Virus record (IMG/VR): IMGVR_UViG_3300046477_000322
Span: 1 to 32,876 of that record
From: a virus
Reading direction: 5' to 3' (one strand)
DNA: 32,876 bases
The notes beneath the pieces are model-generated. The model saw only the letters and a list, made by a program, of their open reading frames with translations, ran no database searches and had not been told where the DNA came from. The first letter of the stretch is position 1. Each line of letters opens with the position of its first letter. Position numbers and translations under genes: made by a program. Positions 5,426 through 30,412 of the stretch are shown here, in pieces.

Positions 5426-6196
5426 TCAGTTCAGGGAGCGGGGCGGGTACGCCTGCTGGCACGTCGACGTGTTCGACGCGGACGAGGCGCTCCAGGTGAG
5501 GTTCATCGTGAGGCCGCACCCGGCGGTGCCCTGCCCCGTCGTGTCGATCGTCGCGGCGGTCCCGCCGAGTAGGAGCTGCGCGGACACCTGCGACGACGTG
5601 ACGGGGATGCCGAGCAGCGCGAACCCGAACCCGATCCCGGTACCGGCCGTCGCCCCGGGCGGGGCGGTGCGGACGGTGAAGTCGAACTGGATCAGGTACG
5701 GCAGGCCCGCGGTGCCGGTGATCGACGTCCACGCGGTGTTCGCGCCGAGGCTGACGTTCGTCGCCGGAGTCGTCGACGTCCCCCACCGCGGGGTGAAGAT
5801 CATCGTCGGCGTCCCGGTGTTGCCGTACGTCCCGTTCAGCTTGATCTGGTACGTCCGGCCGGGGACGGCGTCGTTCGCGGGGATCGCGCAGAACTGGTTG
5901 ATGATCGCCTGCGTCGCGCCGAGCATGTTCAGCTCGGCCGCCGACGTGTTGATCGCGCCGAACGCCGCCGTCGCAGCGGTGCCACCGACGAACGCCTCGA
6001 ACCCCTGGCTGACCATCTGCAAGCCGGGATGCTTCCGGCCGAGCGCGAGGTAGCGGCGGACGGACTCCGGGGCGCGGGCCCGGATCCACTGCTGGTGGAA
6101 CGTGCCGAACTCGAAACCGGCGGCCTGCTCGAGCTCGACGGCCTCGGTGAGCGAGGGCGGCGTTGTGTCGCCCGTCGTGCGGGGAAGAAGAAGCAC
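5426..6196 (-). CDS. Predicted virion or tail-tip protein, beta-rich
   Basis: This is a 256-residue protein. Residues 1-80 are helical (TEAVELEQAAGFEFGTFHQQ). The rest is low in charge and rich in Gly, Thr, Ser and Ala (for example NLTWSASSASNTSTCQQAYP), like a beta-sandwich. Compositional style matches the small virion proteins at 14882-16410. The GTG start at 6196 has AGGAGG six bases upstream. Lying just after the large minor tail protein, it may be a fibre, decoration or baseplate component. The family is not recognised. Confidence 0.6.
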   Translation of the reverse strand: MLLLPRTTGDTTPPSLTEAVELEQAAGFEFGTFHQQWIRARAPESVRRYLALGRKHPGLQMVSQGFEAFVGGTAATAAFGAINTSAAELNMLGATQAIINQFCAIPANDAVPGRTYQIKLNGTYGNTGTPTMIFTPRWGTSTTPATNVSLGANTAWTSITGTAGLPYLIQFDFTVRTAPPGATAGTGIGFGFALLGIPVTSSQVSAQLLLGGTAATIDTTGQGTAGCGLTMNLTWSASSASNTSTCQQAYPPRSLN

Positions 6197-6206
6197 AATG
6201 GGCCTC

Positions 6207-8825
6207 CTAGACGATGGTGGGAATCTGGATCGGGAAGCGCGGCTGCTGAATCAAGGCCAGGCTGGAATCCGGCGTCACGCCGAGCCCGGCCAGCCCGGTA
6301 AGAGCACGCGGCGCGGAGGCGGGCGACAACTCGAGCGTCTGCGTCCACTGGAGGTCACCGGCGAACTCGTCCAGGATCGCCTCGACGTAGCACTCCTGCA
6401 CGACCGGCGGCTCAACCCCGGCCGGAGTCTTGATGATCGCGATCCGGTCGCCGACGTTCACCGTGAGCACCTGGAGCCACATCGCGTTGGCTTCGGTGTC
6501 GAACGCGGACGGGGTCAGCACGAGCTCGTCGATCCGTTGCCGGGCGTCCTTGTACCGGGACACGAGCAACGCCGCCTGTGACGTTGACAGCGCCCCGTCC
6601 GCGACGGTCGACCGGGTCAGCGACCTGTCCCGGAACCGCCTGATGCTGTCGATGTCGATCGCGGTGTTCGGGCCGGGGCCGATCGTCACGTCGTTCAGGA
6701 CTTGGTCGATCCCGAACGCGACCTTGAGGTCCTCGTATGGGAGCGTGCCGCCGATGTCGCCGAACGTCGCGAGCGCCTCGACGCCGTTCGCGTTCCGGTG
6801 GTTCTGGTCGTGGAACGTCGCGTAGCCGTCGTCCGAGATGAAGAAGTAGCCGAGGTCGGCGTCCGCGACGTCGGTCAGGTGGGCGAGCGCCCCGGACGTC
6901 AGATCGCCGGCGTTGGCCGCGACGACCGTGACGAGCCCGGTGTCGATCCGTCGCAGGGCCGTGGGCCACTGGCAGGCGTCGAGGACGTGGTTGATCCTGA
7001 CCCCGGCCTTCTCGGTCACCCATGCCTGGTCGCTGATGTCCGCCAGGGCGAGCTGCCCCGACCCGTCCGTGACGACGGCCGTCGTCAGGGCTTCCGCGGG
7101 CACCTGCCACTCCTGGTCGTACCGCTCCACGAACCCGAGCGACCGGACGTACGACGCCGACGTTGCGGCGTCGTGGTGGCCGGTGACCGTGCTGTCCGCG
7201 AGGGATGTCGTGTAGGCCGCGGCTTCGTCGAGGGTGCCGTCGAACGACGCGACGACGGCCGACCCGGAGCACGCGGCCCCGATGGTGCAGAGCGACACGA
7301 TCGCGGTTCCTGCCGCCGCCCCGCCGGTCGCGACGAGGACCCCGTCGAGGAACAACCGGCCGGACGCTGCGGAGAACGCGGCGTGATGCCAACTCGTGTC
7401 GGCGACCGTGACCGACGAGGTAGCGACGATCGACGACGGTGCCCCGGCCGCCCCGCACCCGAGCGCGAACTTCAGCTTGTCGTCGGTGTCGACGAGGAGG
7501 TAGACGCCTGCGCCAGTCCCGAAGTTGCCCGACCAGATCAGCGGGTCGCGGTGCCCCGGCGTCGTTCGTTTGAACCACACCTCGACCGTGTACGCGCCTG
7601 TCGGCAGCGCCGGGATGCCCGCCCCGATCGAGACGCCTGTCCCTCCGGCTGACGAGAACGTCAGGGCGGTGTCAGGGTCGGTCGGGAGCGCACCCGGCTG
7701 CGAGAACGCGAGCCCGGTCCCGAACGTCGTCCCGGCGAAGTTGTTCCCGGACGAGTCCGCGATTGCCGTGCCGCCGGTTTCGTCGAGGCGGTAGTACGCG
7801 GCCGGGGCCGACCGAAGGATGAGGGTGCGGTAGTACCCGGGCGGTGACGGACTGTACGTCCACGTCAGCCGCATCTGCGCCGGGAGAAGCTGGTTCACGA
7901 ACGGCCCCGCCGGGTAGGTCGGGTCGAACGTCCGCGTCGTGTTGTCGAGCACGAACGACGACTCTCCGGCCTCCATCCGGTCGAGCTCCTGCTGCCTGCC
8001 TGCGTGCTTCACCGACCCGCCGATCAGCTTGTCGCTGATGTCGATCCACGTCGGGCTGACGGGGACGGGGGCGGAGCCGATCCGTTGCGCCATCTGGAGC
8101 GACGTGAGGAACTGGTTCGTGTAGATCGCGGCCTCGTCGATCTGGCCGATCAGGTTGCCCCGGGTCGAGACGGACGCGCTGGTTCGGTTCTCGTAGCCGA
8201 AGAACAGGCTGCCCTGCGCGCCCTGCGAGCCGGGATCGCTGACGGTCGCGATCCAGCGAACACCGTCAACCCACACCTCGGGCAGCGGCTTCGCGAGCAC
8301 GACGAGGTAATGCCAGCTCCCGTCGTTGATCCGGTTCGTCGACGTCGTCGTGGTCGTCGGGCCTGGTGACACCCATGCGTCGTGGACGATCCGGCCGAGC
8401 GTGTCGACCGACACCTTCCGCACGACCAGGCCGTCGCCACGCATCGACGCGAAGATCGTCTGCGAGATCCCGAGGCTGTCGAGGCGGAACCACATCTCGA
8501 CCGTCTTCCACGTCGTGCCGGTCGGGAGCGCACCGGACGAGAACGTGCCGATCCCGCCGATCCCGCCCGAACCGAACTGGATGCTCGTGCTCGCCGGGTT
8601 TCCCGAGATCGCCCCGCCGAGGCCGTACGCGATGTGCTGGAACGTTGCGTTCGGGTCGATGCTGATGTCCCACGCCGTCAACGCGGCCGTTGAATTCGCG
8701 AACGTCGTGCCGCCCGTCTCGTCGAGGTGCCACAGGGCGGCCGGGCCGAGCAGCGTCCCGAGGTCGGCGTAGTCAAGGCCGGTCGGGCCCAGCAGGATCT
8801 CGAGCTTCGGAGTCGGGAAGCTCAT
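6207..8825 (-). CDS. Minor tail protein with two LamG/concanavalin-like domains
   Basis: At 872 residues this is the likely receptor-recognition or baseplate protein. The first LamG-like domain (about 28-250) starts AALWHLDETGGTTFANS and ends GQIDEAAIYTNQF. It is followed by a minor-tail scaffold segment (WIDISDKL, RQQELDRMEAGESSFVLDN, DPTYPAGPF). The second LamG-like domain (about 330-560) starts AAYYRLDETGGTAIADSSGN. The last ~300 residues (QALLVSRYKDARQRIDEL and onward) look like the conserved C-terminal part of actinophage minor tail proteins. The ATG overlaps the tape-measure stop. The LamG domains probably bind host surface sugars. Confidence 0.85.
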   Translation of the reverse strand: MSFPTPKLEILLGPTGLDYADLGTLLGPAALWHLDETGGTTFANSTAALTAWDISIDPNATFQHIAYGLGGAISGNPASTSIQFGSGGIGGIGTFSSGALPTGTTWKTVEMWFRLDSLGISQTIFASMRGDGLVVRKVSVDTLGRIVHDAWVSPGPTTTTTSTNRINDGSWHYLVVLAKPLPEVWVDGVRWIATVSDPGSQGAQGSLFFGYENRTSASVSTRGNLIGQIDEAAIYTNQFLTSLQMAQRIGSAPVPVSPTWIDISDKLIGGSVKHAGRQQELDRMEAGESSFVLDNTTRTFDPTYPAGPFVNQLLPAQMRLTWTYSPSPPGYYRTLILRSAPAAYYRLDETGGTAIADSSGNNFAGTTFGTGLAFSQPGALPTDPDTALTFSSAGGTGVSIGAGIPALPTGAYTVEVWFKRTTPGHRDPLIWSGNFGTGAGVYLLVDTDDKLKFALGCGAAGAPSSIVATSSVTVADTSWHHAAFSAASGRLFLDGVLVATGGAAAGTAIVSLCTIGAACSGSAVVASFDGTLDEAAAYTTSLADSTVTGHHDAATSASYVRSLGFVERYDQEWQVPAEALTTAVVTDGSGQLALADISDQAWVTEKAGVRINHVLDACQWPTALRRIDTGLVTVVAANAGDLTSGALAHLTDVADADLGYFFISDDGYATFHDQNHRNANGVEALATFGDIGGTLPYEDLKVAFGIDQVLNDVTIGPGPNTAIDIDSIRRFRDRSLTRSTVADGALSTSQAALLVSRYKDARQRIDELVLTPSAFDTEANAMWLQVLTVNVGDRIAIIKTPAGVEPPVVQECYVEAILDEFAGDLQWTQTLELSPASAPRALTGLAGLGVTPDSSLALIQQPRFPIQIPTIV

Positions 8826-10486
8826 CCGAGGATCGGCCTGCCGTTCCGCTTCTGCACGCGGAGCATCTCACCGCGGATCGCCTGCATCGCCTGCGGAAGA
8901 CTGCCGAGGTAGTTCGGCATGTTCACGACGATCGTGGTTCCGCCGAACCCACCGTGCGAGAGCGGCACGACCGCCTCCGGGCCAGCCTCACCGATCATCG
9001 CCAGCGTCGGCGACGTCACGATGCCGCCCTGCGCGAGATACGGGATGCTGAAGAACGCCCCCGACCCGCCGTACGAGAACCCGACCTTCCCGACCCCGGG
9101 GATGTGAGTGTCGATCGACAGGCTGAACGCCGGGATCTGCAACGAATCGATCGCCCGAATCACCTCGTTCACCGGCGTCTTGATCGCGACCTCGATCGCC
9201 CGGCCGACCGCGCCGAACGCATTGATGAGCGGCTGGATCGCCTTCCCCGCAAGCGCGCCCAACGTCGAAGCGATCCGGCCCGGGAGCGCATTGAAGTACC
9301 CGAAGATGTCATCGACGACCTGATGGGCCTTCGCCGCGGCCCCGCCGAAGATCGCGTTGATGATCTGGAACTGGAGCATGATCCGCGCCTTGATCGCGTC
9401 GATCTGGTCGATGACGACCGCCTTCGCGTCCCTCCACGCCTGCGACCAATGACCCTGGAGCAGATCCGCGACCAGCCGGATCGTGTCCGCGACCGTCCGC
9501 AGGATCGGCACGACGACCGCCTCGAGCTTCTGGGCGCCCGCCATGATCTGATCGCCGTGCGCCTTCCAGAACGACGACAGCGTGGCGATCGCCGCCGGCA
9601 GGTTGTCCGCGAGCCACACCTCGAGCTTCGTCAGGATCGGCAGCAGCTTCATCCCGACCTTGACCTCGAGCTCGTCCAGCGCGGCGCCGAACCGCTCCTT
9701 CGCGCCGGCCGCCGTGTTCGCGTAGGCGTCGGCCTGGCCGTGCAGCTTGTCCGTGACCGCCGCGATGATCTGGGTGCCGGTGATCTGGTGGTCCTGGATC
9801 TTCGCGTCCTGCCGGTCGAGCTGGTAGTTCAGGTCGAGCTTGTTCTTCAGGACGTCGTACTGCGTCCGCTCGGCCTCGGTCATCTTCGCCGTCGTCGGGA
9901 ACTGCGCCTTCAGCGCCTCGGTCGCGCGCTGATACGCGAACTTCGCCTTGTCCTGGTTCGACGTCGTGGCCTGCACTTCGAGGCCGAGCTGCTTCACGGC
10001 GCGCTGCGACCCGGTCTGCGCCATCGCGAGCATCTTCGTCGCCTGCTCGAGCGAGACGCCCTTGAACCGGGCGATGTCCTGGGCCGCCGACAGCTCCGAC
10101 AGCGCCTTGCTGCCTGAGCCGGTCGCCGTCGCCAGTGTGCCGATCGCGGCCTTCGTCTGGTCGACGCTGAACCCCAGCTTCACCCCGGCCTCCTGCGCCT
10201 TCTCGATCCCGTCCTTGTACGGGCCGATCGCGATGTGAGCGTTCTTGAACGCCTGCTCAAGCCGGGCCTGCGCGACCTGATCCTTCTGCGCCGCCTCCAC
10301 CGACTTGTTCAGCCCCTCGGCGAGAACGAGGACACCGCCGACGGCCGCACCAGCGGCGGCGGTCTTCAGGGCGCTGAACTTCGACGACGTCTTCTCGCTC
10401 GCGGCCTCGGCCTTCGCCGACGCCTCCTCGAGCCCGGTGACGTCGCCGATCCATTTCACGACCAGCACGGCGCCCTTCTCAGCCAT
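8822..10486 (-). CDS. Tail tape measure protein
   Basis: This 554-residue protein sets tail length and is threaded through the tail tube during assembly. The N-terminal ~250 residues are coiled-coil rich (KAEAASEKTSSKFSALKTAA). A middle hydrophobic/helical part follows, then a C-terminal region with GEAGPEAVVPLS, a motif common at tape-measure ends. It is short for the class; at roughly 0.15 nm per residue the tail would be near 80 nm. The start overlaps the second chaperone frame by 8 bases, typical of this gene pair. Confidence 0.9.
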   Translation of the reverse strand: MAEKGAVLVVKWIGDVTGLEEASAKAEAASEKTSSKFSALKTAAAGAAVGGVLVLAEGLNKSVEAAQKDQVAQARLEQAFKNAHIAIGPYKDGIEKAQEAGVKLGFSVDQTKAAIGTLATATGSGSKALSELSAAQDIARFKGVSLEQATKMLAMAQTGSQRAVKQLGLEVQATTSNQDKAKFAYQRATEALKAQFPTTAKMTEAERTQYDVLKNKLDLNYQLDRQDAKIQDHQITGTQIIAAVTDKLHGQADAYANTAAGAKERFGAALDELEVKVGMKLLPILTKLEVWLADNLPAAIATLSSFWKAHGDQIMAGAQKLEAVVVPILRTVADTIRLVADLLQGHWSQAWRDAKAVVIDQIDAIKARIMLQFQIINAIFGGAAAKAHQVVDDIFGYFNALPGRIASTLGALAGKAIQPLINAFGAVGRAIEVAIKTPVNEVIRAIDSLQIPAFSLSIDTHIPGVGKVGFSYGGSGAFFSIPYLAQGGIVTSPTLAMIGEAGPEAVVPLSHGGFGGTTIVVNMPNYLGSLPQAMQAIRGEMLRVQKRNGRPILG

Positions 10487-10939: not shown

Positions 10940-11349
10940 AGGATTCCCTTTCGGTTGAAACGCTCTGCCGCCGCATCGACGGCGGCGTTCATCTTCGCGG
11001 TGATCCACGCTGCGCCCTGTTCGATCGCCGGGCGGATGAACGCGCCGGATCCGCCGTCCTGGTACTCGAGCCGGGCCGGGTATCCGTAGGGCGGGTTGCC
11101 GTGCTTCGCGGTGTCGCGGATCATCCCGGTCGTGCCGCGGACGCTGGACTTCAGCCCGGCGATCAGGTCGCCCGTCTGGTTGTAACCGCGGCCGGCGGCT
11201 TCGTGGGCGGCCATGTCCCGGACGGTCAGGCCGATCTCCTTCTGCGCCGCCGTGAGCCCGGCCGCCGCCTCCGGGGCGAACTTCCGCAGCTTCCGCCGCA
11301 ACTCTGGCAGCCCCTCGACCGTGATCGAGGAAGACACCTTCGCGGGCAT
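10936..11349 (-). CDS. HK97 gp10-like head-tail or tail-completion protein
   Basis: This is a 137-residue protein. Features typical of the HK97 gp10 family are an N-terminal strand plus helix (EGLPELRRKLRKFAPEAAAG), a middle RGYNQTGDLIAGLKSSV, then YPARLEYQDGGSGAFIRPAI and a C-terminal helix. Such proteins usually sit between the connector and the tail terminator. Here it follows the tail tube gene, so the order is unusual. The ATG at 11349 overlaps the upstream stop (TGATG). Confidence 0.75.
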   Translation of the reverse strand: MPAKVSSSITVEGLPELRRKLRKFAPEAAAGLTAAQKEIGLTVRDMAAHEAAGRGYNQTGDLIAGLKSSVRGTTGMIRDTAKHGNPPYGYPARLEYQDGGSGAFIRPAIEQGAAWITAKMNAAVDAAAERFNRKGIL

Positions 11350-12326
11350 CAGGGCGTCGCGTCGGTCGTGCGGTACACCGCGCTGATCGGCCCCGAGCCC
11401 GCGTCGAGGCACTTGAACACGAGCGGCTGCCCGACGATGTCGGGGCCGTTGAACTTCGGCGCCCCGGTGTCGAGGCGGCACGCGGGCAGGGTGACCTCGA
11501 GCGCGTAGTTGTAGGCGTGCGAGATGACCGCGCCCGTCCAGAAGATCGTGACCGCGCACGTGCCGCCCGCCTTGATCCGGGTGAGCTGAGTCAGGTCGTT
11601 CAGCTCCGAGTCGACCGTCAGCATCAGCGACCGGATCTTGTTCGAGATCGGATGCTTCCGAAGCGCCGACCCCGTGAAGTACCGGCTGTCGGCGAGGCTG
11701 TTGTCGCCCTTCAGCGAGAGCGACTTCACGTCGTACGCGACCCCGGCGATCTTCAGGATGCAGTCCTCCGCCGTGAACAGCGTCTGCGTCGGATACGACG
11801 CGGTCGCGAGCGTCTGCCCGTCCTCCGTCGAGTCCCGCGCGATGTAGTCCACGTTGAGCCGGGCGGTCTGGTCGAGCGCCTGCGACAGCTCCCACCCGTT
11901 CACGCAGCAGCCGACGTACTCGTGGACGTGCGTTGTGCCGGCGATGTCGGTCAGGCCGAACTGCTTCGTCATCGACAGGGCGGACAGATCCCCGGCGGTC
12001 AGCGTGTGCTCGTACACCGTCGGGTCAGGCCCGGCGGACGGCTGCGCGGTGTTGACCGTGCCGAGACAATGCTTCAGCTCGAGGCCGAACCCGGTGTTCG
12101 CGAGCTCGTACGAGATCGACCCCGCGGGCGCCCGCTTGCCGGCCGCCCAACGGTCGGAGCGGAGGTACTGCGCGCCGGCGCGGACGGCTCCGGACTCGAT
12201 CCGGTCGATGTTCAGGTCGAACGTCTCGTCGATCATCTCGAGGAACCGCGTCGACGCGAGCCGAGTCCCATAGGTGACTTCGGGGATCGAGCCGACCTGG
12301 GCGGATAGCCCGGTGGGGATCGCCAT
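11349..12326 (-). CDS. Major tail tube protein
   Basis: This 325-residue protein is expected to form the stacked hexamer rings of the tail. It starts MAIPTGLSAQVGSIPEVTYG, a common opening of siphovirus tail tube proteins. It then has RSDRWAAGKRAPAGSISYEL and a beta-rich body. A GGAGGG Shine-Dalgarno precedes the ATG. Its position upstream of the chaperones and tape measure supports the call. Confidence 0.85.
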   Translation of the reverse strand: MAIPTGLSAQVGSIPEVTYGTRLASTRFLEMIDETFDLNIDRIESGAVRAGAQYLRSDRWAAGKRAPAGSISYELANTGFGLELKHCLGTVNTAQPSAGPDPTVYEHTLTAGDLSALSMTKQFGLTDIAGTTHVHEYVGCCVNGWELSQALDQTARLNVDYIARDSTEDGQTLATASYPTQTLFTAEDCILKIAGVAYDVKSLSLKGDNSLADSRYFTGSALRKHPISNKIRSLMLTVDSELNDLTQLTRIKAGGTCAVTIFWTGAVISHAYNYALEVTLPACRLDTGAPKFNGPDIVGQPLVFKCLDAGSGPISAVYRTTDATP

Positions 12327-12329
12327 CGG

Positions 12330-12524
12330 TCAGCCCTCCTTCTTCTTCGTCTTGGTGGCCTTCGTCCAGTGGTCTTCGCCCTGCTCGAGGAGGGAGTCCG
12401 CGACCGAGGTCGGCACCGTGACCGTTGCGCCGCGTGCGCACGAGAAAAGGAAGCCGGTCTTGTAGTCGACGATCTCGACCTCGAGGTGCGGGCCGGTGTA
12501 CGTCACGTCCTGCGTGTCGCTCAT
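12330..12524 (-). CDS. Small virion-cluster protein
   Basis: This 64-residue protein starts VTYTGPHLEVEIVDYKTG, has RGATVTVPTSVADSLLEQ in the middle and ends with a Lys-rich tail (KATKTKKKEG). There is a good GGGAGG site before the ATG at 12524. It resembles the 77-residue protein at 16448-16681 in layout (beta N-terminus, short acidic/helical part). It lies three bases before the tail tube gene. Function is unknown. Confidence 0.65.
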   Translation of the reverse strand: MSDTQDVTYTGPHLEVEIVDYKTGFLFSCARGATVTVPTSVADSLLEQGEDHWTKATKTKKKEG

Positions 12525-12563
12525 CGGTGCCTCCCGGTCGTGTTGTTAAGATCCGCGCGATTC

Positions 12564-12640
12564 GGCGGTTCGAACCCGCCCTGTGGCCGCCCCGCCCACG
12601 GCTACCGCACTGGTGAAGCGGAGGCGCCTGATCAGCGCCA
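12564..12640 (+). ncRNA. Possible circularly permuted tRNA-like RNA (Ile-GAT-like anticodon)
   Basis: Plus strand, in order: T-arm 12564-12580 (GGCGG TTCGAAC CCGCC); a short hairpin, 12581-12586 with 12596-12601 (6 bp, one G-U); TA at 12603-12604; D-arm 12605-12621 (CCGC ACTGGTGAA GCGG, with A14, G18G19 and A21); anticodon arm 12623-12639 (GGCGC CTGATCA GCGCC, T33, GAT). Most invariant tRNA bases fit, but the halves are in reverse order. Against it: the acceptor is out of register by one base, position 37 is C, no CCA is seen, and 12589-12595 can pair with 12641-12647 instead. The 135-bp gap lies opposite the late operon. It could instead be a tRNA-derived att site. Confidence 0.3.
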
Positions 12641-12659
12641 GCGGGGCAACTTCTCTCTC

Positions 12660-13100
12660 TCAGATACGAGCCGTGCAGGCGATGCTGATCGTCAACTGCG
12701 ACTCGACCTTCGCGCCGCGCTTCAGCTCGCGCAGAGCGATCGGCCCCGCCACCAGGGCGGTACGCACCGACCCGTTCAGGTTCGTGTACGTGAACCGCAG
12801 CCCGACCTCGATCAGCGCCGCGAGCGCGAACGCGCGCTCCGTCGATGTCTGGTTGTCGCCGGCCTCCTCGAGCACCGACACCACGACGTCGATCGTGTAC
12901 GTCTCCTCACGGTGGCGGGAGCCGATCGCCGCCGACTCCTGCTGGCCGGCGACGTCCGCGACCATGATCCATTCGCGCTGCGGCTCGCCGGTCGGGTACC
13001 CGTACGTGACCATCACGTTCGAGTCGTTGACGAGCGTCGTGATGATCTGGACGAGCGCCGACTTCGCAGCGGGGATCGTCGACGGTGCGATCGTCGGCAC
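12660..13100 (-). CDS. Tail terminator / tail completion protein
   Basis: This 146-residue protein is probably the ring that caps the tail tube and meets the head connector. The layout fits the terminator family: N-terminal helix (TIPAAKSALVQIITTLVN), strands around TGEPQREWIMVADV, and a middle RHREETYTIDVVVSVLEE, then a helix and final strands. The GTG at 13100 follows the connector stop by one base. The call rests on position and fold pattern. Confidence 0.7.
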   Translation of the reverse strand: MPTIAPSTIPAAKSALVQIITTLVNDSNVMVTYGYPTGEPQREWIMVADVAGQQESAAIGSRHREETYTIDVVVSVLEEAGDNQTSTERAFALAALIEVGLRFTYTNLNGSVRTALVAGPIALRELKRGAKVESQLTISIACTARI

Positions 13101-13101
13101 G

Positions 13102-13764
13102 CTAGAACACCATCGTCCGGCGGGCCAAAGGTTCGAGCAGACGCTTCGCGCTGTTCGGGATGTCGAGGCCGCCGGACGTGTCCGGGAGCGTCATCCGGCC
13201 GTCGATGTTGTCTGCGGGCGCGTACGACCCGGCCCGCCGGTCGACCCACGACGCGACCGTGACGATGCACGCACGCTTCACCGGGGCCGGGATCGTCGGG
13301 AACCCCCACGTCCCCGTGATCTGGATCTGGGCGTAGCCGAACTGCGTCGCGAACGCCGACGTGATCGGCAGGTATGACGACACCCGCAGCCCGTAGTAGA
13401 CCCCGTAGAACGAAGGGATCGGCTCGAGCGCGTAGTCCGTCCCGGCCGTCAGGGTCAGCGCCGAGCCGCCCGTCTCGGGGTGCAGGATGACCGACGTCGC
13501 GGTCTGGAGGTCGTACGGGCTCAGATCGACGAACGTGCCGAGCGGGCCGCCGCCGCTCCAGGCGCTCCGCCAGTCGATCGGGAACGTCCTCGCGGTCCCG
13601 GCCGCGCTCTGCGGCGAGAACTCCCGCTTGCAGTACTCCATGATCCGGAGGCTCGCGTCCGTGATCGCGTCGTCGATCAGCGCGTCCCGGACGGTCACGG
13701 TGTCCTGGATCTCGAGGGCCAGCTTCACGTCGGGGCGGGTGCAGAGGTCGCTGTCGTCAGCCAC
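13102..13764 (-). CDS. Head-tail connector protein (gp6-like)
   Basis: At 220 residues it is the probable adaptor below the portal. The N-terminal helices (LCTRPDVKLALEIQDTVTV, DDAITDASLRIMEYCKREF) and C-terminal VKRACIVTVASWVDRRAGSY fit the HK97 gp6/SPP1 gp15-type connector layout, with a beta-rich insert between. The GTG start at 13764 has GGAGG upstream. It precedes the tail terminator, as usual. Confidence 0.8.
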   Translation of the reverse strand: MADDSDLCTRPDVKLALEIQDTVTVRDALIDDAITDASLRIMEYCKREFSPQSAAGTARTFPIDWRSAWSGGGPLGTFVDLSPYDLQTATSVILHPETGGSALTLTAGTDYALEPIPSFYGVYYGLRVSSYLPITSAFATQFGYAQIQITGTWGFPTIPAPVKRACIVTVASWVDRRAGSYAPADNIDGRMTLPDTSGGLDIPNSAKRLLEPLARRTMVF

Positions 13765-16984: not shown

Positions 16985-17154
16985 TTCTGCTGCTGCTCCG
17001 ACGAGTAGTTCTCGCCCGGGGACGGACGGCCGACCTGCGGAACATGGTTCGACGGGCCTGCGGCGCCGGACTGCGGCATCTTGCTGACCGCGCCCTTCCC
17101 CGTCTTCGCGTTCTTGCCGTGAACCGTCGGCGTGTACGTCGGCTGGCCGGCCAT
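16981..17154 (-). CDS. 57-residue low-complexity protein
   Basis: This protein is rich in Gly, Pro, Ser, Lys and Gln and probably unstructured (HGKNAKTGKGAVSKMPQSG and an end with SSEQQQK). ATG at 17154 overlaps the stop of the 34-residue gene before it, and its own stop overlaps the next GTG. Found because it fills the gap exactly; function unknown. Confidence 0.6.
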   Translation of the reverse strand: MAGQPTYTPTVHGKNAKTGKGAVSKMPQSGAAGPSNHVPQVGRPSPGENYSSEQQQK

Positions 17155-17258
17155 CACTTGCCCGGCTTCGGCATCATCGCCGGCGGAACGTGCGCCGGCT
17201 GGGTCGCGGGCTGCTTCGGCCCCGAGCCCTTCTGGATGACCACGACCTGCTTGCCCAT
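17154..17258 (-). CDS. 34-residue Pro/Lys-rich peptide
   Basis: MGKQVVVIQKGSGPKQPATQ and PAHVPPAMMPKPGK form a short beta-like start plus a Pro-rich tail. A GGGAGG site lies seven bases before the ATG at 17258, and the stop overlaps the next ATG, so translation is credible. It is the first gene after the major capsid gene and its hairpin. Role unknown. Confidence 0.6.
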   Translation of the reverse strand: MGKQVVVIQKGSGPKQPATQPAHVPPAMMPKPGK

Positions 17259-17281
17259 GCTGGTACCTCCCGTAGTTCCCC

Positions 17282-17316
17282 TGGGGGCGGGCCAGAGGGG
17301 GAACGGCCCGCCCCCA
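17282..17316 (-). terminator. Strong hairpin just after the major capsid gene
   Basis: TGGGGGCGGGCC (17282-17293) pairs fully with GGCCCGCCCCCA (17305-17316), loop 11. It lies 15 bases after the capsid stop. It may act as a partial terminator or an mRNA 3'-end stabiliser that raises capsid output relative to downstream genes. No U-tract follows. Confidence 0.6.
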
Positions 17317-17331
17317 AGTTCGTCGTTAGGT

Positions 17332-18831
17332 CTACGTCGTGCCCTGGAGCGCCTGGAACGCCGACGCGGACAGCACCTTGCTGGAGTTCCTCCACCAGCA
17401 GTAGTACGCCCGCTGACCGACCGGGATGTTCCCCTGGCCGGCGCCGAACAGCGTCGGGATCAGCTCGATGTGGAGGCCGATCCGGTCGACGATCAGGAAG
17501 TAGGAGAAGTCGCCGACGACCATGATCTTCGTCGCGTTGACGACGGTCGCCTGCATCCCGGACGCCTCCCACGCGCCACGGCCGAGCAGCGTCGCCCCGG
17601 TGTTGCCGGGCGTCGGCGCCTGCGTCACGAGCCCCTGCGAGATGTAGAGCCACAGGGCCGCACCGCCGGCGGTGTCGATGCCGCGGACGATGTTGTAGAT
17701 GCCGCGGTTCGCGACGAACGACTCGTTCCCGCGGAACCGCGGAGCGAGGGCCGCCTCGAGCGCGTAGACGTTCGCCGCCGTGACCGTGAGGCCGGTCGCC
17801 GCCGCGACGACGTTCGTGGTGCCGGTGACGAACCCCTGCGGGTTCACGCCGGTGCCGGCGCCCGTCACGAACGCCGTCCCTTCCTCGTCGTCCTTCGCGT
17901 CCTGGAACAGCTTCGCGAGCTCCGCGCCGATCGAGCCCCAGTCCTCCTCGATCTCGACCGAGAACGGCACGAAAGCGTGCGCCTTCGTGACGGTGAGAGT
18001 CGGGGCGGCCATCGTCGGGCTGTTGTCCGACGCGACCGTGGCCTCAGCGACGCGCGACGCCGTGATGGCGCCCGAGCTGATGCCGTTCCAGGTGTTCGAC
18101 CCGGTGATCGTCTCGACCCGGCCGAGCGCACGAGCCGGGTTCACGACGCTGTTCGACGTCGGGATGACGGTCGGGTCGAGCGTGAACGGAACCGCCTGAC
18201 CTCCCGTCGTCGCCCCGGTCGACAGGGCGCGCTGCTCCTCACCCGACAGCGGCTTCCCCGCGAGCGCCTTGCCGAACGCCCGCTTGTAGACCGGCGAGCC
18301 GGTCGCGAGGAGGTGCCGGGCCATCTGACCCGGGATCGACTCCTGCGTGTTCTCGACGAGGTTCGCGAGGTGCGACTGGATGTCCTCGTGCGTCGGGCCG
18401 CCCCGCGTCTTCTGGAGGCCCGGGAACGACGCGAGCTCGATCGCGCGCATCGCGCCGTCGCGGAGATCCCGCTTCAGCGCGAACGGATCGTCGGCGCGCC
18501 CCTCGTACTTCGAGAGGTCGTAGACGTCGCGCTCCTTCATCGAGCCCTTCAGGTCGCGCTCGTGCCGGAACGGGTCGGTGCCCCGCTCGACGCTGCGCTC
18601 GTTGCCGGCCACCTCGGCCATGTACCGCTCCCGGGCCTGGAGCTCGGCGACGCGCTTCTTGATCTCGTCGTTCGTGTCGCGGAGCCGCGCGTACGTCTCG
18701 CGGACGTCGTCCGGGTACGGAAGCCCCTGGTACTCCGTCTCGAGTCCCTTGACCTCGGACACGACGTCGTTCTGGTAGTTCGTGAGCTCGTCGATGCTGC
18801 GGAGCTCGTTCAGGTCTAGCTGGTCGCCCAT
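17332..18831 (-). CDS. Major capsid protein, HK97 fold
   Basis: This 499-residue protein forms the icosahedral shell. Residues 1-~110 are helical and charged (SEVKGLETEYQGLPYPDDVR), a delta/scaffold-like domain likely removed by the prohead protease. The HK97 body starts near STGATTGGQAVPFTLDPTVI and includes SFEIEEDWGS-like SVEIEEDWGSIGAELAKLFQ and a C-terminal AYYCWWRN. The ATG at 18831 was preferred over the GTG at 18840 because AGGAG lies 8 bases upstream. It overlaps the protease end by 16 bases. Confidence 0.95.
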   Translation of the reverse strand: MGDQLDLNELRSIDELTNYQNDVVSEVKGLETEYQGLPYPDDVRETYARLRDTNDEIKKRVAELQARERYMAEVAGNERSVERGTDPFRHERDLKGSMKERDVYDLSKYEGRADDPFALKRDLRDGAMRAIELASFPGLQKTRGGPTHEDIQSHLANLVENTQESIPGQMARHLLATGSPVYKRAFGKALAGKPLSGEEQRALSTGATTGGQAVPFTLDPTVIPTSNSVVNPARALGRVETITGSNTWNGISSGAITASRVAEATVASDNSPTMAAPTLTVTKAHAFVPFSVEIEEDWGSIGAELAKLFQDAKDDEEGTAFVTGAGTGVNPQGFVTGTTNVVAAATGLTVTAANVYALEAALAPRFRGNESFVANRGIYNIVRGIDTAGGAALWLYISQGLVTQAPTPGNTGATLLGRGAWEASGMQATVVNATKIMVVGDFSYFLIVDRIGLHIELIPTLFGAGQGNIPVGQRAYYCWWRNSSKVLSASAFQALQGTT

Positions 18832-19889
18832 TCGAGCCACTCCTCTCGGGTACGGAACCGCTTGTCTGCTTCGCGGCGCCCGGCGTCCGAGGTGCCCTTG
18901 GAGGGCGGCGTCGTCTCGCTGGGGGTGCGTCCGGGCTTCTTCGACCGCCCGGCCGGGTCGTCTTCGTCTTCGACCTCGTTCTCCTGCACCTCGTACGGCA
19001 CAAGAGCGGTCAGGGAGGCGATGATCGCCTCCATCTTCGGGATGTTGACCTCGTCGCCGGGCTCGTCCTGCTCGGCGATGTAGTCGGCTCCGAGGCCGAT
19101 CATCTGCGCGAGGCAGGAGAGATCCTCGACGTCCATCCGAACTTGTCCGTCACGGGGCTGCGCTCGTAGCGCCGCGGTCGCCGCCCGGCTCGCCGGGAAC
19201 GTCACCGGACCGAACTCCATCACCTGCATCTCTTTCAGCGACCGCTCAGGGAGACCGTTCGGGTTGTAGTCCGACGCCTCCGGCTCGTCGTCCCAGAACT
19301 CACGCAATGCGCGGAAGCGGAACGACGCCCCGTAGAGGCCGTCGCGGATCCCCGGTGCGATGCCGCGGACGTAGTCGACGAGGTCGCCGTTGTCGTCGCG
19401 CAGCAGCGGCACCTCGTAGTAGGCCCCCTCGTCGTCTTCGCGAAGATCAGCGATCGGGCCGAGCGGCTTGTCCGCGACGATCGGATCCGAGCCGTGCTGG
19501 AACAGGGCGCGCATCGCATCGCGGTTCTCCCGGATCGTCTTCTTCGCCGACCCGCGAACGGTGCGCTCCATGAAGTGGCCCTCGAAGAACGAGTCGACCT
19601 CGTACCAGGCGTCCCAGACCGTGAAATGGCCGTAGAGGGTGTCGGATGCGACTGCTCCGTTGGACTGGGCGGTACGGATCGTGGTCGTCGGCAACATCCG
19701 CGGCTTGCTCGCGTAGGAGACGACCCGATCGGCCATGCGGAGCACGGCCTTGTTGCGGACGAGTTCTTGGGCGGATTCGATCGACCCATACCGCTGCGCC
19801 GCCACAGCGAAGGCGAAGCGATCTCCGCGTTCGGCGGCGGCCACGACGGACCGAGCGAGAACCTCCCGCGCCGGGTTGTCGGATGCCAT
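18816..19889 (-). CDS. HK97-family prohead protease
   Basis: This 357-residue protein matures the prohead by cleaving capsid scaffold domains. Protease part about residues 80-245: His132 in LFQHGSDP and Ser189 in GLYGASFRF are the likely catalytic pair, and VMEFGPVTFPASRAA is a family hallmark. There is an unusual N-terminal extension of about 75 residues. The charged C-terminal ~100 residues (ENEVEDEDDPAGRSKK) may act as scaffold or be cleaved. An AAGGAGG site precedes the ATG. Confidence 0.9.
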   Translation of the reverse strand: MASDNPAREVLARSVVAAAERGDRFAFAVAAQRYGSIESAQELVRNKAVLRMADRVVSYASKPRMLPTTTIRTAQSNGAVASDTLYGHFTVWDAWYEVDSFFEGHFMERTVRGSAKKTIRENRDAMRALFQHGSDPIVADKPLGPIADLREDDEGAYYEVPLLRDDNGDLVDYVRGIAPGIRDGLYGASFRFRALREFWDDEPEASDYNPNGLPERSLKEMQVMEFGPVTFPASRAATAALRAQPRDGQVRMDVEDLSCLAQMIGLGADYIAEQDEPGDEVNIPKMEAIIASLTALVPYEVQENEVEDEDDPAGRSKKPGRTPSETTPPSKGTSDAGRREADKRFRTREEWLEWATS

Positions 19890-19901: not shown

Positions 19902-21269
19902 CTACGGGGTAAGAGCCGGCGTGGCGCCGTTCGTGGTTGGATCCGCTGCCGGGGTCGGGTCGCCCGACTGCACCTGGACGGACGGACGGCCTTCGTGCTT
20001 CCCCATCAGCCGGTTCAGGTCGCCCGACGTGACCGCGTCAACGCAGGCGTCGGCGTCGTACCCGGCCATGAACAACGTCGAGATCGACTGGGCGTCCGAC
20101 TGCAACCGCTCCCCGGCCTTCTTGATGTCTTCTTTCAGCGCGGGGATGTCGCGGTCGTCGTACCAGAGCTCGGCGCCGGCAGGGACCGGGACGGCGATCG
20201 CGAGGGCGGCGGCACTCTTGCGCCACAGCTCGCGGATCGTGACGTCGGTGAACATCCGCATCGCCGCGTCGAAGTTCCCGGCGTTCAGCGTCGACCCCTG
20301 GAGCCCCTCCGACAGCCCGACGACCGCCGGGGGCGTGCCAGCGGCGGCCGCGATCCGTGTCTCACCGGCGCCCTGCGTGGCCTTGAAGTCCATGTCGACG
20401 AAGTTCGAGCCGACTGGGGTCGGGGTCGCGCCGCCGCCGACGAACATCGTCTTGTAGCGGTTCGCGAGCCCCTCGTACTTCGTCGAGAACGCCTCCTGGA
20501 AGACCTTCGCGTTCGCCGCCGAGACGTCCTTGTCCATGACCATGTACAGGTTCGTAACGGCGCCGTTCTCGAGGAACTTCAGCTTGTGCTCGGTGTAGCC
20601 GGTGTCGCCCTGGATCTCCCGGATGACCGGCGTCAGCCACGACATGCCGCGGAACCGCGCCTCGGGATCCGGGGTCGGGGCGTAATGCACGACCTCGCTA
20701 ACGTCGAGCAGAACCGGCGCGACGCCAGGGGCGCGCGGCCCGCCGGGGTAGTAGGCGTACCCGAGGATCTCGCAGTCGAGTTGCTCCGCCGCGTCCTCGG
20801 CATCCTGCTGCGACCCGAGCAGGATGTTGACCCAGTCGGGGCGCATCCGCCGGAGGCCGTCCCGGGTGACCCGAGCGTAGAAGTTCCCGGCCAGCGACGA
20901 ATCCTGCTCCATCCGGGCCAGCAGATCGCCCGTCGTGCCGTTCGGCCACGGCGTCTCGAGGATCGCCAGCGACGGATCGCCGAACAGGTCGCCGGGCCGC
21001 CCCTTCCGGATCTGCCGATACTTGAACCGGGCCTCGCAGAACAGCGCCGACCGGGCCCGCATACAGGCGAAAACGACGGCGTTCCCCTTGTACGCCTGCC
21101 GGGACAGCGACCCGAAGTCGCCGCGCATGTCGGGGATCTCGATGTTCCCCTTCACCGACGGCGAGTAGCCGCTCACGTTGTACGTGTGGTTCAGGTACGA
21201 GACCATTTCGGCCCACCCGGACACGGTCATCGGCGGGTCTGACCGCTTGGCCCACGGGATCAGCCTCAT
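19902..21269 (-). CDS. Portal protein, HK97 type
   Basis: This 455-residue protein forms the dodecameric DNA gateway at the capsid vertex. Supporting motifs: QAYKGNAVVFACMRARSALF, LLARMEQDSSLAGNFYARVT, FRGMSWLTPVIREI, and the late GTPPAVVGLSEG and TIRELWRK segments typical of this family. The C-terminus is a Pro/Thr-rich tail. The ATG overlaps the stop of the 81-residue gene. Position between terminase and protease is canonical. Confidence 0.95.
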   Translation of the reverse strand: MRLIPWAKRSDPPMTVSGWAEMVSYLNHTYNVSGYSPSVKGNIEIPDMRGDFGSLSRQAYKGNAVVFACMRARSALFCEARFKYRQIRKGRPGDLFGDPSLAILETPWPNGTTGDLLARMEQDSSLAGNFYARVTRDGLRRMRPDWVNILLGSQQDAEDAAEQLDCEILGYAYYPGGPRAPGVAPVLLDVSEVVHYAPTPDPEARFRGMSWLTPVIREIQGDTGYTEHKLKFLENGAVTNLYMVMDKDVSAANAKVFQEAFSTKYEGLANRYKTMFVGGGATPTPVGSNFVDMDFKATQGAGETRIAAAAGTPPAVVGLSEGLQGSTLNAGNFDAAMRMFTDVTIRELWRKSAAALAIAVPVPAGAELWYDDRDIPALKEDIKKAGERLQSDAQSISTLFMAGYDADACVDAVTSGDLNRLMGKHEGRPSVQVQSGDPTPAADPTTNGATPALTP

Positions 21270-21511
21270 GCGACGCCATCCTTGAGGGTGACCGAGTAGG
21301 AACCATCGGCCTCCAGGTAGACCTGGTCGATCCTCGGATCTGTGACGATTGGCTCGTCAGAGAGGCGCTCGATCACGTAGGCCAGGTCGAGGTTCACGTC
21401 GACGACCTTGTCCGTGGCGCCGACGGTGGCCTTCACCCATCCGGGCCTCGCCACGGGGCCGTCGAACACGAACCCGCGCTCGTCGCCGATGAACCGCGCG
21501 ATGTACCTCAT
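21266..21511 (-). CDS. Small protein between terminase and portal
   Basis: This 81-residue protein is beta-rich at both ends (MRYIARFIGDERGFVFDGPV, IDQVYLEADGSYSVTLKDGV). It is coupled by 4-base overlaps to terminase and portal. No family recognised; short proteins at this site are common in actinophages. Confidence 0.7.
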   Translation of the reverse strand: MRYIARFIGDERGFVFDGPVARPGWVKATVGATDKVVDVNLDLAYVIERLSDEPIVTDPRIDQVYLEADGSYSVTLKDGVA

Positions 21512-23121
21512 GCGAACACGAAGGGTTGGAGTTCCTCGGCCGGCTCGAGCGGACACGCCGACGTGTGAACCATCGCCGCCGCGACCAGACCGTCGATCGC
21601 GCGGCGCCGCTGCTCCGCCGGCGACACCGTCCGCGACGTCTTGATCCTCACGAACCGCGTATCGCCGCCGGGAAGCACCTGGGCGCCGGCGTTCAGCGCG
21701 TGCCGGGTCAGGCCCGCGTCGCCGCTGTGCTTCAGCCAGTCGTACCGGAGCGCCTCCATGAACCGGGCGTAGTCGAGCACCTGCATCGTCGTCGACTGCG
21801 ACCTGTCGATGACGTCAGCCCCGATGTTCTCCTCGATCCACTGCGACAACTGGGCTCCCTCCGTCATGTCCATCACCACCGTATGAATCGGGTTCCGCTC
21901 ATGGACAGCGAGTAGCGCAGCCTCGACGAGATGCGCGTCGAGCTGGTTCCCGTTCCCGGGCGGCTCGAGGATCGTCGCCGGCCCGAACAGCCGAAACTCC
22001 GGGTCGCGCGGCCAGAACGGCACCAGCGCGGTCGTGTCGACCTTCCACCCGAGGTCGAGCCCGAGCCAGACCGACTCGCCGGCAGGGATCGACTCCGACG
22101 TGCGCGCCGCTTCCCACTCGGCCTCCGTGATCGCCGCGTGAATCGACCGGGTCGGGAGGTTGCAAGTGAACCGGAGCCAGTGCGCGAGGCTCCACGTCGG
22201 CTTCGCCCGCTTCTTCCGGAGCTGCTCCACCGTCTTCCCCCGGAACGGGTTCGCCGCCGCGACGAGCTCGAGATCCTCCGGGTCGCCGGTCGCCGGGATC
22301 GCGTACTCGTGCAGCACGACCCCTTCACCAGCGGCACGGACGAAGCATCCATCGCGCTCGAAATCGGTCGCCAGCGTCCGGATCGTCTCGCGGAGCTCCT
22401 CGAACGCCCCGCCAGGCTCGCCGGCCGTCGACGCGACGATCAACTGGCCGTTCGACTTGTCGAGCTTCCCCGACCACGTCTCGTACAGATCCATCGACGC
22501 GAGCCGATGCAGCTCCTCGATGATCGCCAACGTCGGGTCGACACCGTCCCCGGACGCCGCATCCGACGCGAAAATCTTCGACGCGCCCCTCGACTCCTGA
22601 TGCACGATCTGCCGGTACCCCGGATGCAGCCGAAACTCCGACCCCTCGAGCCCGTTCCTCTGCACCAGCCCCGCCGAGATCCGATACGTCAGATCAACCG
22701 CCTGATCCCTCGCCGACGCCGCGATCGGCACCCACGCCTCCGGCACGAACTCGAGCGTGTAGAGCATCAGCAACGAGAAGAACGTCGTCTTCCCGTTCCC
22801 CTCCGGCACGACCAGCCACAGCTCCGAGTAGACCGGCAGGCCCGCCTCGTCCCTCGCGAACACGTCCTCGAGGAACAACGCCTGGTAGTCGTCGAGGTCG
22901 AACTGCGTCCCGTCCTTCAGCCGGAACTTCGACGACCATGACCGGAAATGCGCCACCGTGAACGGCTGCCCGGGCACCTGGCGCCGCTTCGGCTTCCTTT
23001 TCGGCTCCGCAGCCCGCGGCGAGCACCCGAGACAGAACTTCCGCGGCCGGCCCGTCCCCGGCTGCTCGAACCGCTTCCGGCACCGCTCACACGTCGACCG
23101 GGCGACCTCGACAACGCTCAT
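21508..23121 (-). CDS. terL: Terminase large subunit with N-terminal zinc ribbon
   Basis: This 537-residue packaging motor has an ATPase and a nuclease. An N-terminal zinc ribbon uses Cys11/14 and Cys30/33. The Walker A-like loop is VVPEGNGKT (about 104-112) and Walker B is TLAIIEE (about 197-203). The nuclease domain has Asp356 (GLDLGWKVD), Asp418 (VVMDMTEG) and a late acidic AIDGLVAAAM. The ATG at 23121 overlaps the HNH gene stop; longer frames upstream run through that gene and were rejected. No separate small terminase was recognised. Confidence 0.95.
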   Translation of the reverse strand: MSVVEVARSTCERCRKRFEQPGTGRPRKFCLGCSPRAAEPKRKPKRRQVPGQPFTVAHFRSWSSKFRLKDGTQFDLDDYQALFLEDVFARDEAGLPVYSELWLVVPEGNGKTTFFSLLMLYTLEFVPEAWVPIAASARDQAVDLTYRISAGLVQRNGLEGSEFRLHPGYRQIVHQESRGASKIFASDAASGDGVDPTLAIIEELHRLASMDLYETWSGKLDKSNGQLIVASTAGEPGGAFEELRETIRTLATDFERDGCFVRAAGEGVVLHEYAIPATGDPEDLELVAAANPFRGKTVEQLRKKRAKPTWSLAHWLRFTCNLPTRSIHAAITEAEWEAARTSESIPAGESVWLGLDLGWKVDTTALVPFWPRDPEFRLFGPATILEPPGNGNQLDAHLVEAALLAVHERNPIHTVVMDMTEGAQLSQWIEENIGADVIDRSQSTTMQVLDYARFMEALRYDWLKHSGDAGLTRHALNAGAQVLPGGDTRFVRIKTSRTVSPAEQRRRAIDGLVAAAMVHTSACPLEPAEELQPFVFA

Positions 23122-23471
23122 GTGTCGTTTTCTGACACTCGCGAAAAGTTGGGCGGGTGTTTTTCGAGAAAAATGTTTTTCGTCGCAAACCCGCCCCCCG
23201 TGTGGGTTTTCGTTCCGCGTCGGCTGTTGCAGGAGCGATGGGCGGGTCGTAGGTTGGACGGGGTGTCTTGTCCTCCGTGTGCTTGCGGAAGGATGTGGTC
23301 TGCGGTGAGGGGGTCGGCTTGTGTGCCGGGCTTGCCGCAGATTGCACAGGCTGGGGCGGAGGCGATGGCGCGGCGGAGGTAGAGATCTCTGCGTGCTCGG
23401 AGTCTGGGGTGTCGGGGGCAGCGGCTCGTGGTTGAGGGTGCACCGCAGATGACGCAGGCTCGGAGTGTCAT
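23118..23471 (-). CDS. HNH endonuclease next to the terminase
   Basis: This 117-residue nuclease probably assists genome cutting at cos together with TerL, as known for HK97-type phages. Zinc pairs: CVICG and a later Cys, and CAICG with RSCNSR. The HNH core is ADHILPQAHGGQDTPSN then LRPAHRSCNSRRG. A GAGAGGTG site precedes the ATG at 23471. Its C-terminal codons run through an AT-rich, repeated stretch (23151-23196) unlike its surroundings. Confidence 0.85.
   Translation of the reverse strand: MTLRACVICGAPSTTSRCPRHPRLRARRDLYLRRAIASAPACAICGKPGTQADPLTADHILPQAHGGQDTPSNLRPAHRSCNSRRGTKTHTGGGFATKNIFLEKHPPNFSRVSENDT
23151..23196. repeat. AT-rich island flanked by an inverted repeat at the HNH-terminase junction
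   Basis: GGGCGGGT (23151-23158) and ACCCGCCC (23189-23196) flank a 30-nt stretch. TGTTTTTCG occurs there twice, 16 bases apart (23158-23166, 23174-23182). Such A/T runs are rare in this GC-rich genome and lie where cos or pac sites are often found. It is also coding (end of the HNH gene). A cos/terminase-binding site is possible, not shown. Confidence 0.45.
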
Positions 23472-23585
23472 GCGTCACCTCTCTTGGCTCAACCATGCGC
23501 TTCGTACTGCGTGGGAGCGTGCGGAGTCTTGAGGGTGTCCCACCGCGAAGGCGGCGATCGTGGTGGAGTGTAGTCGAAGGTGCGG

Positions 23586-23828
23586 CTATTCGTCCGTGGG
23601 CGCTTTGAGCAGAGCTGTCTTGAGGGGATAGAGAGCGTCGCTGATGGCGAACGGTTCCCAGTCCTTGCCGGTCTGCGCGATCTGATTGGCTAGTCCGACG
23701 CGGCTCGCCTCGTTGTCGGCGAAGGTCGCTTCCATGATGAGCCACGTTCCGAGTTGGTAGACCCGGAGCCAGTGCTGGTCTGCTGGACGCGGTGTCGGCT
23801 CTGGTTCGGGTCTGCGCTTGAACATCAT
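23586..23828 (-). CDS. Small hypothetical protein
   Basis: This is an 80-residue protein with a basic Pro-rich start (MMFKRRPEPEPTPRPADQHW) and a mixed alpha/beta body (RVYQLGTWLIMEATFADNEA). ATG at 23828 overlaps the upstream stop. The 114-bp gap after it (23472-23585) holds no gene and only a weak hairpin; it may contain the promoter for the packaging genes or cos. Family not recognised. Confidence 0.65.
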   Translation of the reverse strand: MMFKRRPEPEPTPRPADQHWLRVYQLGTWLIMEATFADNEASRVGLANQIAQTGKDWEPFAISDALYPLKTALLKAPTDE

Positions 23829-24058
23829 GCCTCGAAGCGGGATAGCGGCTGGGACGTGGAGTATGGATACCACGGCTCCTCGATGGCCTGCCATGCGGTG
23901 CCGTCGTATTCATTCGGCAGCGTGGCGTCGAACGCGATGAGCTTGCGGCGCAGCGCGAGGATGATGACTTCGGTCTTTCGTAGATCCTGTTCGGCGCGTT
24001 GTCTCGCGTCGCGGATCCAGGGCGGTCCGAAGACTGCGGTGACGTGTTCTTCGCTCAT
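23825..24058 (-). CDS. Small hypothetical protein
   Basis: This 77-residue protein has a helical middle (RDARQRAEQDLRKTEVIILA) and an aromatic C-terminus (TAWQAIEEPWYPYSTSQPLS). ATG at 24058 overlaps the stop of the zinc/HTH gene. Lies just upstream of the packaging genes, where a small terminase would be expected, but no clear DNA-binding motif is seen. Confidence 0.65.
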   Translation of the reverse strand: MSEEHVTAVFGPPWIRDARQRAEQDLRKTEVIILALRRKLIAFDATLPNEYDGTAWQAIEEPWYPYSTSQPLSRFEA

Positions 24059-29308: not shown

Positions 29309-30412
29309 CTACCCGCCGTCCCGACCCTTAGACTCCAGCCCAGTATCCATGCGGGATGACGGCTTACGGACATTCGCGGTCACCCCGGACGGATCCTCGG
29401 TTGAACTCAAATCTTCCCGCCGCAAATTGCGGGACTCCCGAGACGGCCCGCTGTCAGAGTCGGCAACGTCCCAGGAGAGGCTCCGAACGGGCTCCATCGC
29501 CTTCTGCTTGTTCATCTTCCGCAGGTAGATCTCGGTCGTCGCGAGGTGCTTGTGGCCCATCAGTTCCTTGAGGCCGACGATGTCTCCGTCGGTCGCTTCG
29601 AGGTAGAAGCACGCGAACGCGGCCCGCAGCGAGTGGACGTGCGCGGTGACTTCGGCCCGGCGGGCTATCCGACGGATCAGCCGGTAGATGACCGCAGCGT
29701 CCCGGTCGGGCCGGCGGATCCATTCGGGGCGCGGAGACGGGACGAGGTAGTCCTGATCGTCGTACACACCGTCAGCGAGGGCCTCCTCGATCAGCATGTC
29801 GAGCTTCCCGGGGATCGGCTTGTAAATCGGCTTGCCGCCCTTCTCGCGGAACCTGATCCGTCCGCGGCCCCGGTCGTAGTCCTGGATGCGGAGCTGCGAG
29901 AGCGCCGACCGGCGCGGGCCGAGGTAGATCGCGACGTCCAGCGCGAGCCGTTCCGGCCAGCCCTCGGCGAGGAACCGCATCCGGCGCACGTCGTCCGTCG
30001 ACACCGTCACGACGTCGAGGTCTTCCGACTGCGGCCGGCGCGTCCGTACGAGCATGTCGCACGGGTCACGGGTGACCTTGCCCTGGAACCGCAGCCACGA
30101 GAAGAACGAGCAGACGGCCGATTCGACCGTCGCCTTCGTGCTCTTGGAGCGGTTGCGGTAGCGGCGCAGGAACGGCTGGATGTGCTGGTCGAGCGTGATC
30201 CTCGACACGTCCATGTCCGACGGGACGGAGTCGCAGAGCAGGCCGAGATACCGGCCGTATTCGATGATCGTTCTGGCGGAGTAGTCACGCCGCTCGAGGT
30301 CGTCGAGCCAGTGGTCTAGGGCACGGCTGAGTGTGAGCATCGGCCGAATCTGAACCTCGACCGGCAGGAGTTCAACCTCGGCGGGGCCGACCGGCTGTGT
30401 CTGCAACGTCAC
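29309..30412 (-). CDS. int: Tyrosine integrase
   Basis: This 367-residue site-specific recombinase integrates the phage genome. The SAM-like core-binding domain is at about 26-115 (LSRALDHWLDDLERRDYSAR). The catalytic domain has Arg167 (LGPRRSAL), Lys191/194 (EKGGKPI), His260-Arg263 (HVHSLRAAF), His287 (GHKHL) and nucleophile Tyr296 (ATTEIYLR). A long C-terminal tail (about 300-367) is Ser/Arg-rich. The GTG at 30412 overlaps the upstream stop; ATG at 30337 is the alternative. Neighbours are packed, so attP is not adjacent. Confidence 0.9.
   Translation of the reverse strand: MTLQTQPVGPAEVELLPVEVQIRPMLTLSRALDHWLDDLERRDYSARTIIEYGRYLGLLCDSVPSDMDVSRITLDQHIQPFLRRYRNRSKSTKATVESAVCSFFSWLRFQGKVTRDPCDMLVRTRRPQSEDLDVVTVSTDDVRRMRFLAEGWPERLALDVAIYLGPRRSALSQLRIQDYDRGRGRIRFREKGGKPIYKPIPGKLDMLIEEALADGVYDDQDYLVPSPRPEWIRRPDRDAAVIYRLIRRIARRAEVTAHVHSLRAAFACFYLEATDGDIVGLKELMGHKHLATTEIYLRKMNKQKAMEPVRSLSWDVADSDSGPSRESRNLRREDLSSTEDPSGVTANVRKPSSRMDTGLESKGRDGG

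Follow-up and report, generated by a model that had tools for sequence, protein, structure and literature searches.

Does a gap in a viral tail operon that carries the arms of a tRNA in exchanged order encode an RNA, or is it a spacer whose other strand happens to look like one? The locus lies in the IMG/VR virus record IMGVR_UViG_3300046477_000322. The window, meaning the whole stretch of DNA analysed, is 32,876 bases long; its minus strand encodes a set of tailed-phage genes, and the relatives of this virus are Actinobacteria phages. Around the locus genes are mostly spaced by 1-12 bases, and here 135 non-coding bases separate two of them. The genes relevant to the question are:

29309-30745: integrase
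21508-23913, minus: terminase
19902-21269, minus: portal
17332-18840, minus: capsid
13102-13764, minus: head-tail adaptor
12660-13100, minus: 146-aa gene upstream of the gap in the operon, phrog_22863 (function unknown), occupying the position of a tail-terminator-type gene
12330-12524, minus: 64-aa gene downstream of the gap, starting with ATG and with GGGAGG upstream
11349-12326, minus: tail-tube gene, phrog_290, annotated as major tail protein in phiC31-type phage relatives
8822-10486, minus: tape measure

By homology, both genes flanking the gap are on the minus strand, and the plus-strand arms are in antisense orientation to the tail operon. Neither strand showed a promoter-like site near the element, and the minus strand of the gap has no T-run terminator. 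Under our gene choice the structural block holds two more gaps, of 340 bases (11009-11348) and 286 bases (17046-17331). Elsewhere in the window, a minus-strand gene at 1263-1946 matches phosphoheptose isomerase and, weakly, polynucleotide kinase families.

All the arms that an earlier note had read from these letters are present, in the order that it described:

12542-12556, plus: leader segments GTTG (12542-12545) and CCGC (12553-12556), proposed to pair with the trailer
12564-12580, plus: T-arm-like hairpin GGCGG-TTCGAAC-CCGCC, 19.3 bits (mean of the training set 21.1), the best T-arm of the window
12581-12601, plus: acceptor-like hairpin of 6 bp, CTGTGG/CCACGG (strands 12581-12586 and 12596-12601), seen in the sequence
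12603-12621, plus: TA (12603-12604) and D-arm-like hairpin CCGC-ACTGGTGAA-GCGG (12605-12621), D plus anticodon score 17.6 bits
12622, plus: A between the D-arm and the anticodon arm
12623-12639, plus: anticodon-arm-like hairpin GGCGC-CTGATCA-GCGCC (GAT), seen in the sequence and counted in the permuted model
12641-12650, plus: trailer segments GCGG (12641-12644) and CAAC (12647-12650), proposed partners of CCGC and GTTG, respectively

The 3' half precedes the 5' half and each arm of the full set occurs once, as in a circularly permuted tRNA gene; the T-loop and G18G19 are intact. The acceptor-like hairpin could reach 7 bp if C12597 were bulged, and an extra C (12602) stands between it and the TA.

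The arms are statistically unusual. With a log-odds score trained on 46 class I tRNAs from phages and E. coli, the T-arm and the D and anticodon arms together reach 36.9 bits, although the 17.6 bits of the latter pair fall below the training mean of 30.3 and the 10th percentile of 24.5. The best T-arm (12564-12580) and the best D plus anticodon arm (12603-12639), each ranking first in the window, are 22 nt apart in the expected order. A strict pattern scan gave 0 matches in 120 Mb of order-3 Markov sequence, and in 1.55 Gb of such simulated sequence 12 sites reached 26 bits, one reached 35.0 and none 36. In 4.77 Mb of reversed real loci, in which hairpins are retained, the top score was 31.0. 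A covariance model built from 16 tRNAs permuted in silico (R1) scored the locus at 30.6 bits and no other place in the window above 10.6; on phage loci without tRNAs it reached at most 9.7. We estimate the chance of such arms at about 1e-5 to 1e-4 per window. On these simple nulls the three arms go beyond chance, a suggestive result and not a decisive one; chance stays possible because the criteria were set after the sequence had been seen and this was one of an unspecified number of windows.

Other searches at the locus were less informative. Neither ARAGORN nor Rfam RF00005 recognised a standard-order cloverleaf, an Rfam search of the gap returned only noise, and no tmRNA was found by ARAGORN or Rfam. 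A permuted tmRNA shares with the element a T-arm and acceptor 3' strand placed ahead of the acceptor 5' strand, but it has a tag frame and lacks a D-stem and an anticodon arm. Running ARAGORN on the rearranged sequence, as the earlier note had proposed, did give a tRNA-Ile with anticodon GAT; however, the same duplication trick produced tRNAs at three other places in the window, and therefore the call carries little weight. More generally, an ARAGORN match on a rejoined RNA alone is no evidence. Folding energy does not discriminate either, since the permuted structure lies 5.0 kcal/mol above the best fold and real tRNAs permuted in silico have a median of 4.9.

Could this be a working, circularly permuted tRNA-Ile(GAT) gene? 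Leader and trailer would then have to pair, cleavage and joining of the ends would take place in the variable region, and the loop linking the acceptor strands would be trimmed away. The complete set of arms, each present once, and the acceptance of the rejoined RNA by ARAGORN agree with this reading, as does the loop of 6-9 nt, which falls inside the 1-74 bp known for the intervening loop of permuted genes (PMC3978253). Nevertheless, we consider it very unlikely. The acceptor is not flush. The 6-bp hairpin that had been proposed as acceptor does exist, but with a 1-nt offset caused by the extra C before the TA; the 7-bp version requires a bulge, and a flush 7-bp stem scores -29 bits, where the real tRNAs of the training set average +11. 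The stems suggested in the earlier note to bring the ends together (CCGC/GCGG and GTTG/CAAC) pair no better than shuffled flanks (p = 0.31-0.51), whereas in the same test four control units of another phage, L154, gave p <= 0.004. A strict bulge-helix-bulge was not found at the locus, and bacteria are not known to have an endonuclease for this motif. The antisense position relative to the operon also counts against a permuted gene, and so do the imperfect acceptor, C37 and the missing CCA, which the earlier note had already named as weaknesses. The permuted genes of red and green algae and of Thermofilum likewise place the 3' half before the 5' half, with a short intervening loop and leader and trailer flanks, but their acceptors are good and a bulge-helix-bulge marks the junction (PMC3978253, PMC3218864). 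Neither of these is supported in the window element, and its junction would fall in the variable region, unlike theirs. Thus, the arm order and the rarity of the arms survive from the permuted-gene reading, and what it lacks is a flush acceptor, closing stems, the sense orientation in the operon and a second phage with the gap.

The only copy found, L005, is 100% identical and uninformative on compensatory change. Tail cassettes with 30-37% similar proteins (L003, L004 and L028) have no gap at this place, and relatives found through the capsid (MCP) have head genes in common and different tail genes. A search with the tail-tube gene found no gap-bearing relative among the genomes and named phages covered.

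A perfect T-arm is the usual core of tRNA-type attachment sites, and in this respect the element could be an attP copying the 3' end of a host tRNA, or else the leftovers of two neighbouring tRNA genes. The earlier note had named a match to a host tRNA 3' end as the finding that would make it an att site, but the exact 23-mer of T-arm plus acceptor occurs in none of about 85,000 species genomes, and the integrase (29309-30745) is 16.7 kb from the arms. As for leftovers, neither of the missing partners is present: upstream of the T-arm the best D/anticodon candidate scores -16.2 bits, and the best T-arm candidate beyond the anticodon arm -7.5 bits. We regard this whole explanation, attachment site or leftovers, as extremely improbable.

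The order T-arm, acceptor, D-arm is in itself the known architecture of a bacterial Y RNA, YrlA, and is used by phages. YrlA is described as having a basal stem, formed by its paired ends, and a tRNA-like domain that combines D, T and acceptor arms (PMC8394870; also PMC7790460). Two IMG/VR pattern scans followed by a filter for flush acceptor hairpins gave 21 phage units, composed of T-arm, 7-bp acceptor hairpin with a loop of 3-13 nt, TA or TG, and D-arm. Their acceptor stems differ at every pair yet remain paired, although the units had been selected for this pairing; neither the D-arm sequences nor the flanks entered the selection. Several phage units match Rfam RF02553 (YrlA) with scores below its cut-off, a TROVE/Ro60 gene is present in 6 of 13 records with such YrlA-like units, and the Ro60 gene has a YrlA-like RNA beside it both in Mycobacterium phage Alice and in Brevundimonas phage Kikimora. 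The remark in the earlier note that there was no firm phage case of a permuted tRNA gene therefore needs context, as the T-acceptor-D order is known from Y RNAs that phages carry, and a phage element with this order should be checked against Y RNAs first. Reading the units in L034, L154 and about 15 other contigs as new permuted tRNA genes was given up because several of them match RF02553; a family search with the L034 flank motif otherwise matched only one unrelated coding sequence.

Is the window element, then, a working Y RNA, the partner of a host Ro60? The arm order, the intact T-loop and G18G19, and a trailer (GCAACTT) similar to the 3' flank of the L154 units and to the YrlA consensus are consistent with it. 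But a model of the 21 phage T-acceptor-D units (R2) gave 17.2 bits on the element, with the T-arm alone matched, against 41-50 bits on the GC-rich Y RNAs of Alice and Kikimora, which are outside the training set. There was no match to RF02553 at the locus, and no basal stem from paired ends above shuffles, the basal stem being a defining feature. Ro60/TROVE (PF05731) is absent from the 32.9-kb record, which is possibly a fragment, and a Ro60 could be provided by the host. Like YrlA (RF02553, the partner of Ro60/Rsr), the element carries a T-arm, followed on the same strand by an acceptor-like hairpin and then a D-arm; it differs in its non-flush acceptor, in an anticodon-like hairpin after the D-arm, and in lacking a basal stem above chance, a Ro60 gene in the record and an RF02553 match. 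On the tests applied, the window element would not be classified as a Y RNA, and a working one bound by a host Ro60 seems highly improbable.

A broader alternative, and the main rival, is a tRNA mimic that has decayed or diverged strongly. It would descend from a YrlA-like Y RNA or from a half-exchanged tRNA, with an added anticodon-like hairpin and a family pattern no longer adhered to, or only loosely. It stays alive since R1 gives 29.8-41.6 bits on true phage Y RNAs, a range that includes the 30.6 bits of the element. The YrlA arm order, a score above all of the 1.55 Gb of simulated sequence and relatives without the gap, as expected of an insertion, also speak for such a mimic. On the other hand, RF02553 does not match and R2 matches the T-arm alone; the 32.9-kb record has no Ro60, and no basal stem rises above shuffles. 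Moreover, the anticodon-like arm is downstream of the D-arm, whereas in those phage Y RNAs that possess such an arm it precedes the T-arm. We hold this explanation to be a tentative possibility. The narrower proposal, that a temperate actinophage-type virus carries, antisense in its tail operon, a half-exchanged tRNA-derived RNA that kept its anticodon arm, be it a permuted tRNA-Ile or a Y-RNA-like mimic of new layout, is unlikely. If true, it would give a bacterial virus a tRNA or tRNA mimic that is cut at a new point and for which no joining enzyme is known.

The explanation that we prefer, with a probability of roughly 0.5, is that the gap is a structured mRNA spacer and that the tRNA look on its other strand is coincidental. 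It is favoured by the failure of the flush acceptor, the chance-level leader-trailer stem and the match of R2 to the T-arm alone, and also by the minus-strand neighbours, the missing promoter, the gapless similar cassettes, the ordinary plus-strand folds and a better fold on the minus strand:

12586-12650, minus: sense-strand fold, 10-bp basal stem GUUGCCCCGC/GCGGGGCGGC with two G-U pairs, closing two hairpins; -36.0 kcal/mol, z -1.90

The two G-U pairs of the basal stem pair on the minus strand only. This fold (12650-12586) is in the top 0.6% of the 65-nt minus-strand segments of the window and in the top 3% at similar GC, and the plus strand of the same segment has -29.5 kcal/mol (z -0.96). 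Other plus-strand folds are ordinary, with z 0.27 (12564-12650) and -0.05. The minus-strand fold lends weak support to a spacer as modelled, for on neither strand is the gap as a whole unusually stable, and the segment 12586-12650 was chosen with the fold in view.

The gap would then be a GC-rich, structured spacer between genes of the late (tail) operon, and any function would reside in the minus strand, the sense one. The mRNA is predicted to form the 10-bp stem closing two hairpins and, after it, a 5-bp hairpin of its own, shortly before the ribosome site of the 64-aa gene. Possible effects of such folding are insulation of translation, slower decay or the ending of some transcripts, and the plus-strand tRNA look would be the antisense image of those hairpins, two of which have nearly palindromic loops, a resemblance that is probably accidental. 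The intergenic mRNA hairpins of phage late operons are likewise GC-rich stems on the mRNA strand just upstream of a ribosome site; unlike them, the gap has no minus-strand T-run terminator and its function is putative. Counting against a spacer are the rarity of the arms in simulated and reversed sequence, the adjacency of the two best arms, the 30.6 bits of R1, and a z of -1.9 that comes from a post hoc segment in an otherwise ordinary gap.

The survey of phage units yielded observations of its own. In L154 (IMGVR_UViG_3300045107_000413, 80500-87500, minus strand), four tRNA-like units are arrayed at reverse-complement 5440-6130. Three of the four have perfect flush 7-bp acceptor hairpins (loops of 4, 11 and 4 nt), and one has a complete anticodon arm (Pro TGG). 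Each of the four is closed by an 8-11-bp stem whose sequence differs from unit to unit, next to an internal loop, CATAAC / AACTT, that is conserved. A Ro60 gene was looked for in the 122-kb record and not found. Among 25 phage YrlA-like units (from L024, L063, L090, L114, L117, L154, L174, L191, L192, L195, L199, L220, L224, L227, L240, L253, L255, L257, L262 and L263), ten carry an anticodon-arm-like hairpin with T33 located 4-6 nt upstream of the T-arm, against a mean of 1.8 and a maximum of 7 in 500 shuffles. These ten resemble complete tRNAs whose halves have changed places, the break lying between D-arm and anticodon arm. Streptomyces phage Blueeyedbeauty (L024, MH536814), a cultured phage, has YrlA-like units at 8461-8515 and 9554-9610 that are not annotated as such, and its genes include those for a Ro-like protein, an RNA ligase and a polynucleotide kinase. 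In Brevundimonas phage Kikimora (L262/L264), at least three YrlA-like units stand in a row beside the Ro60 gene, at about 158,300-158,950.
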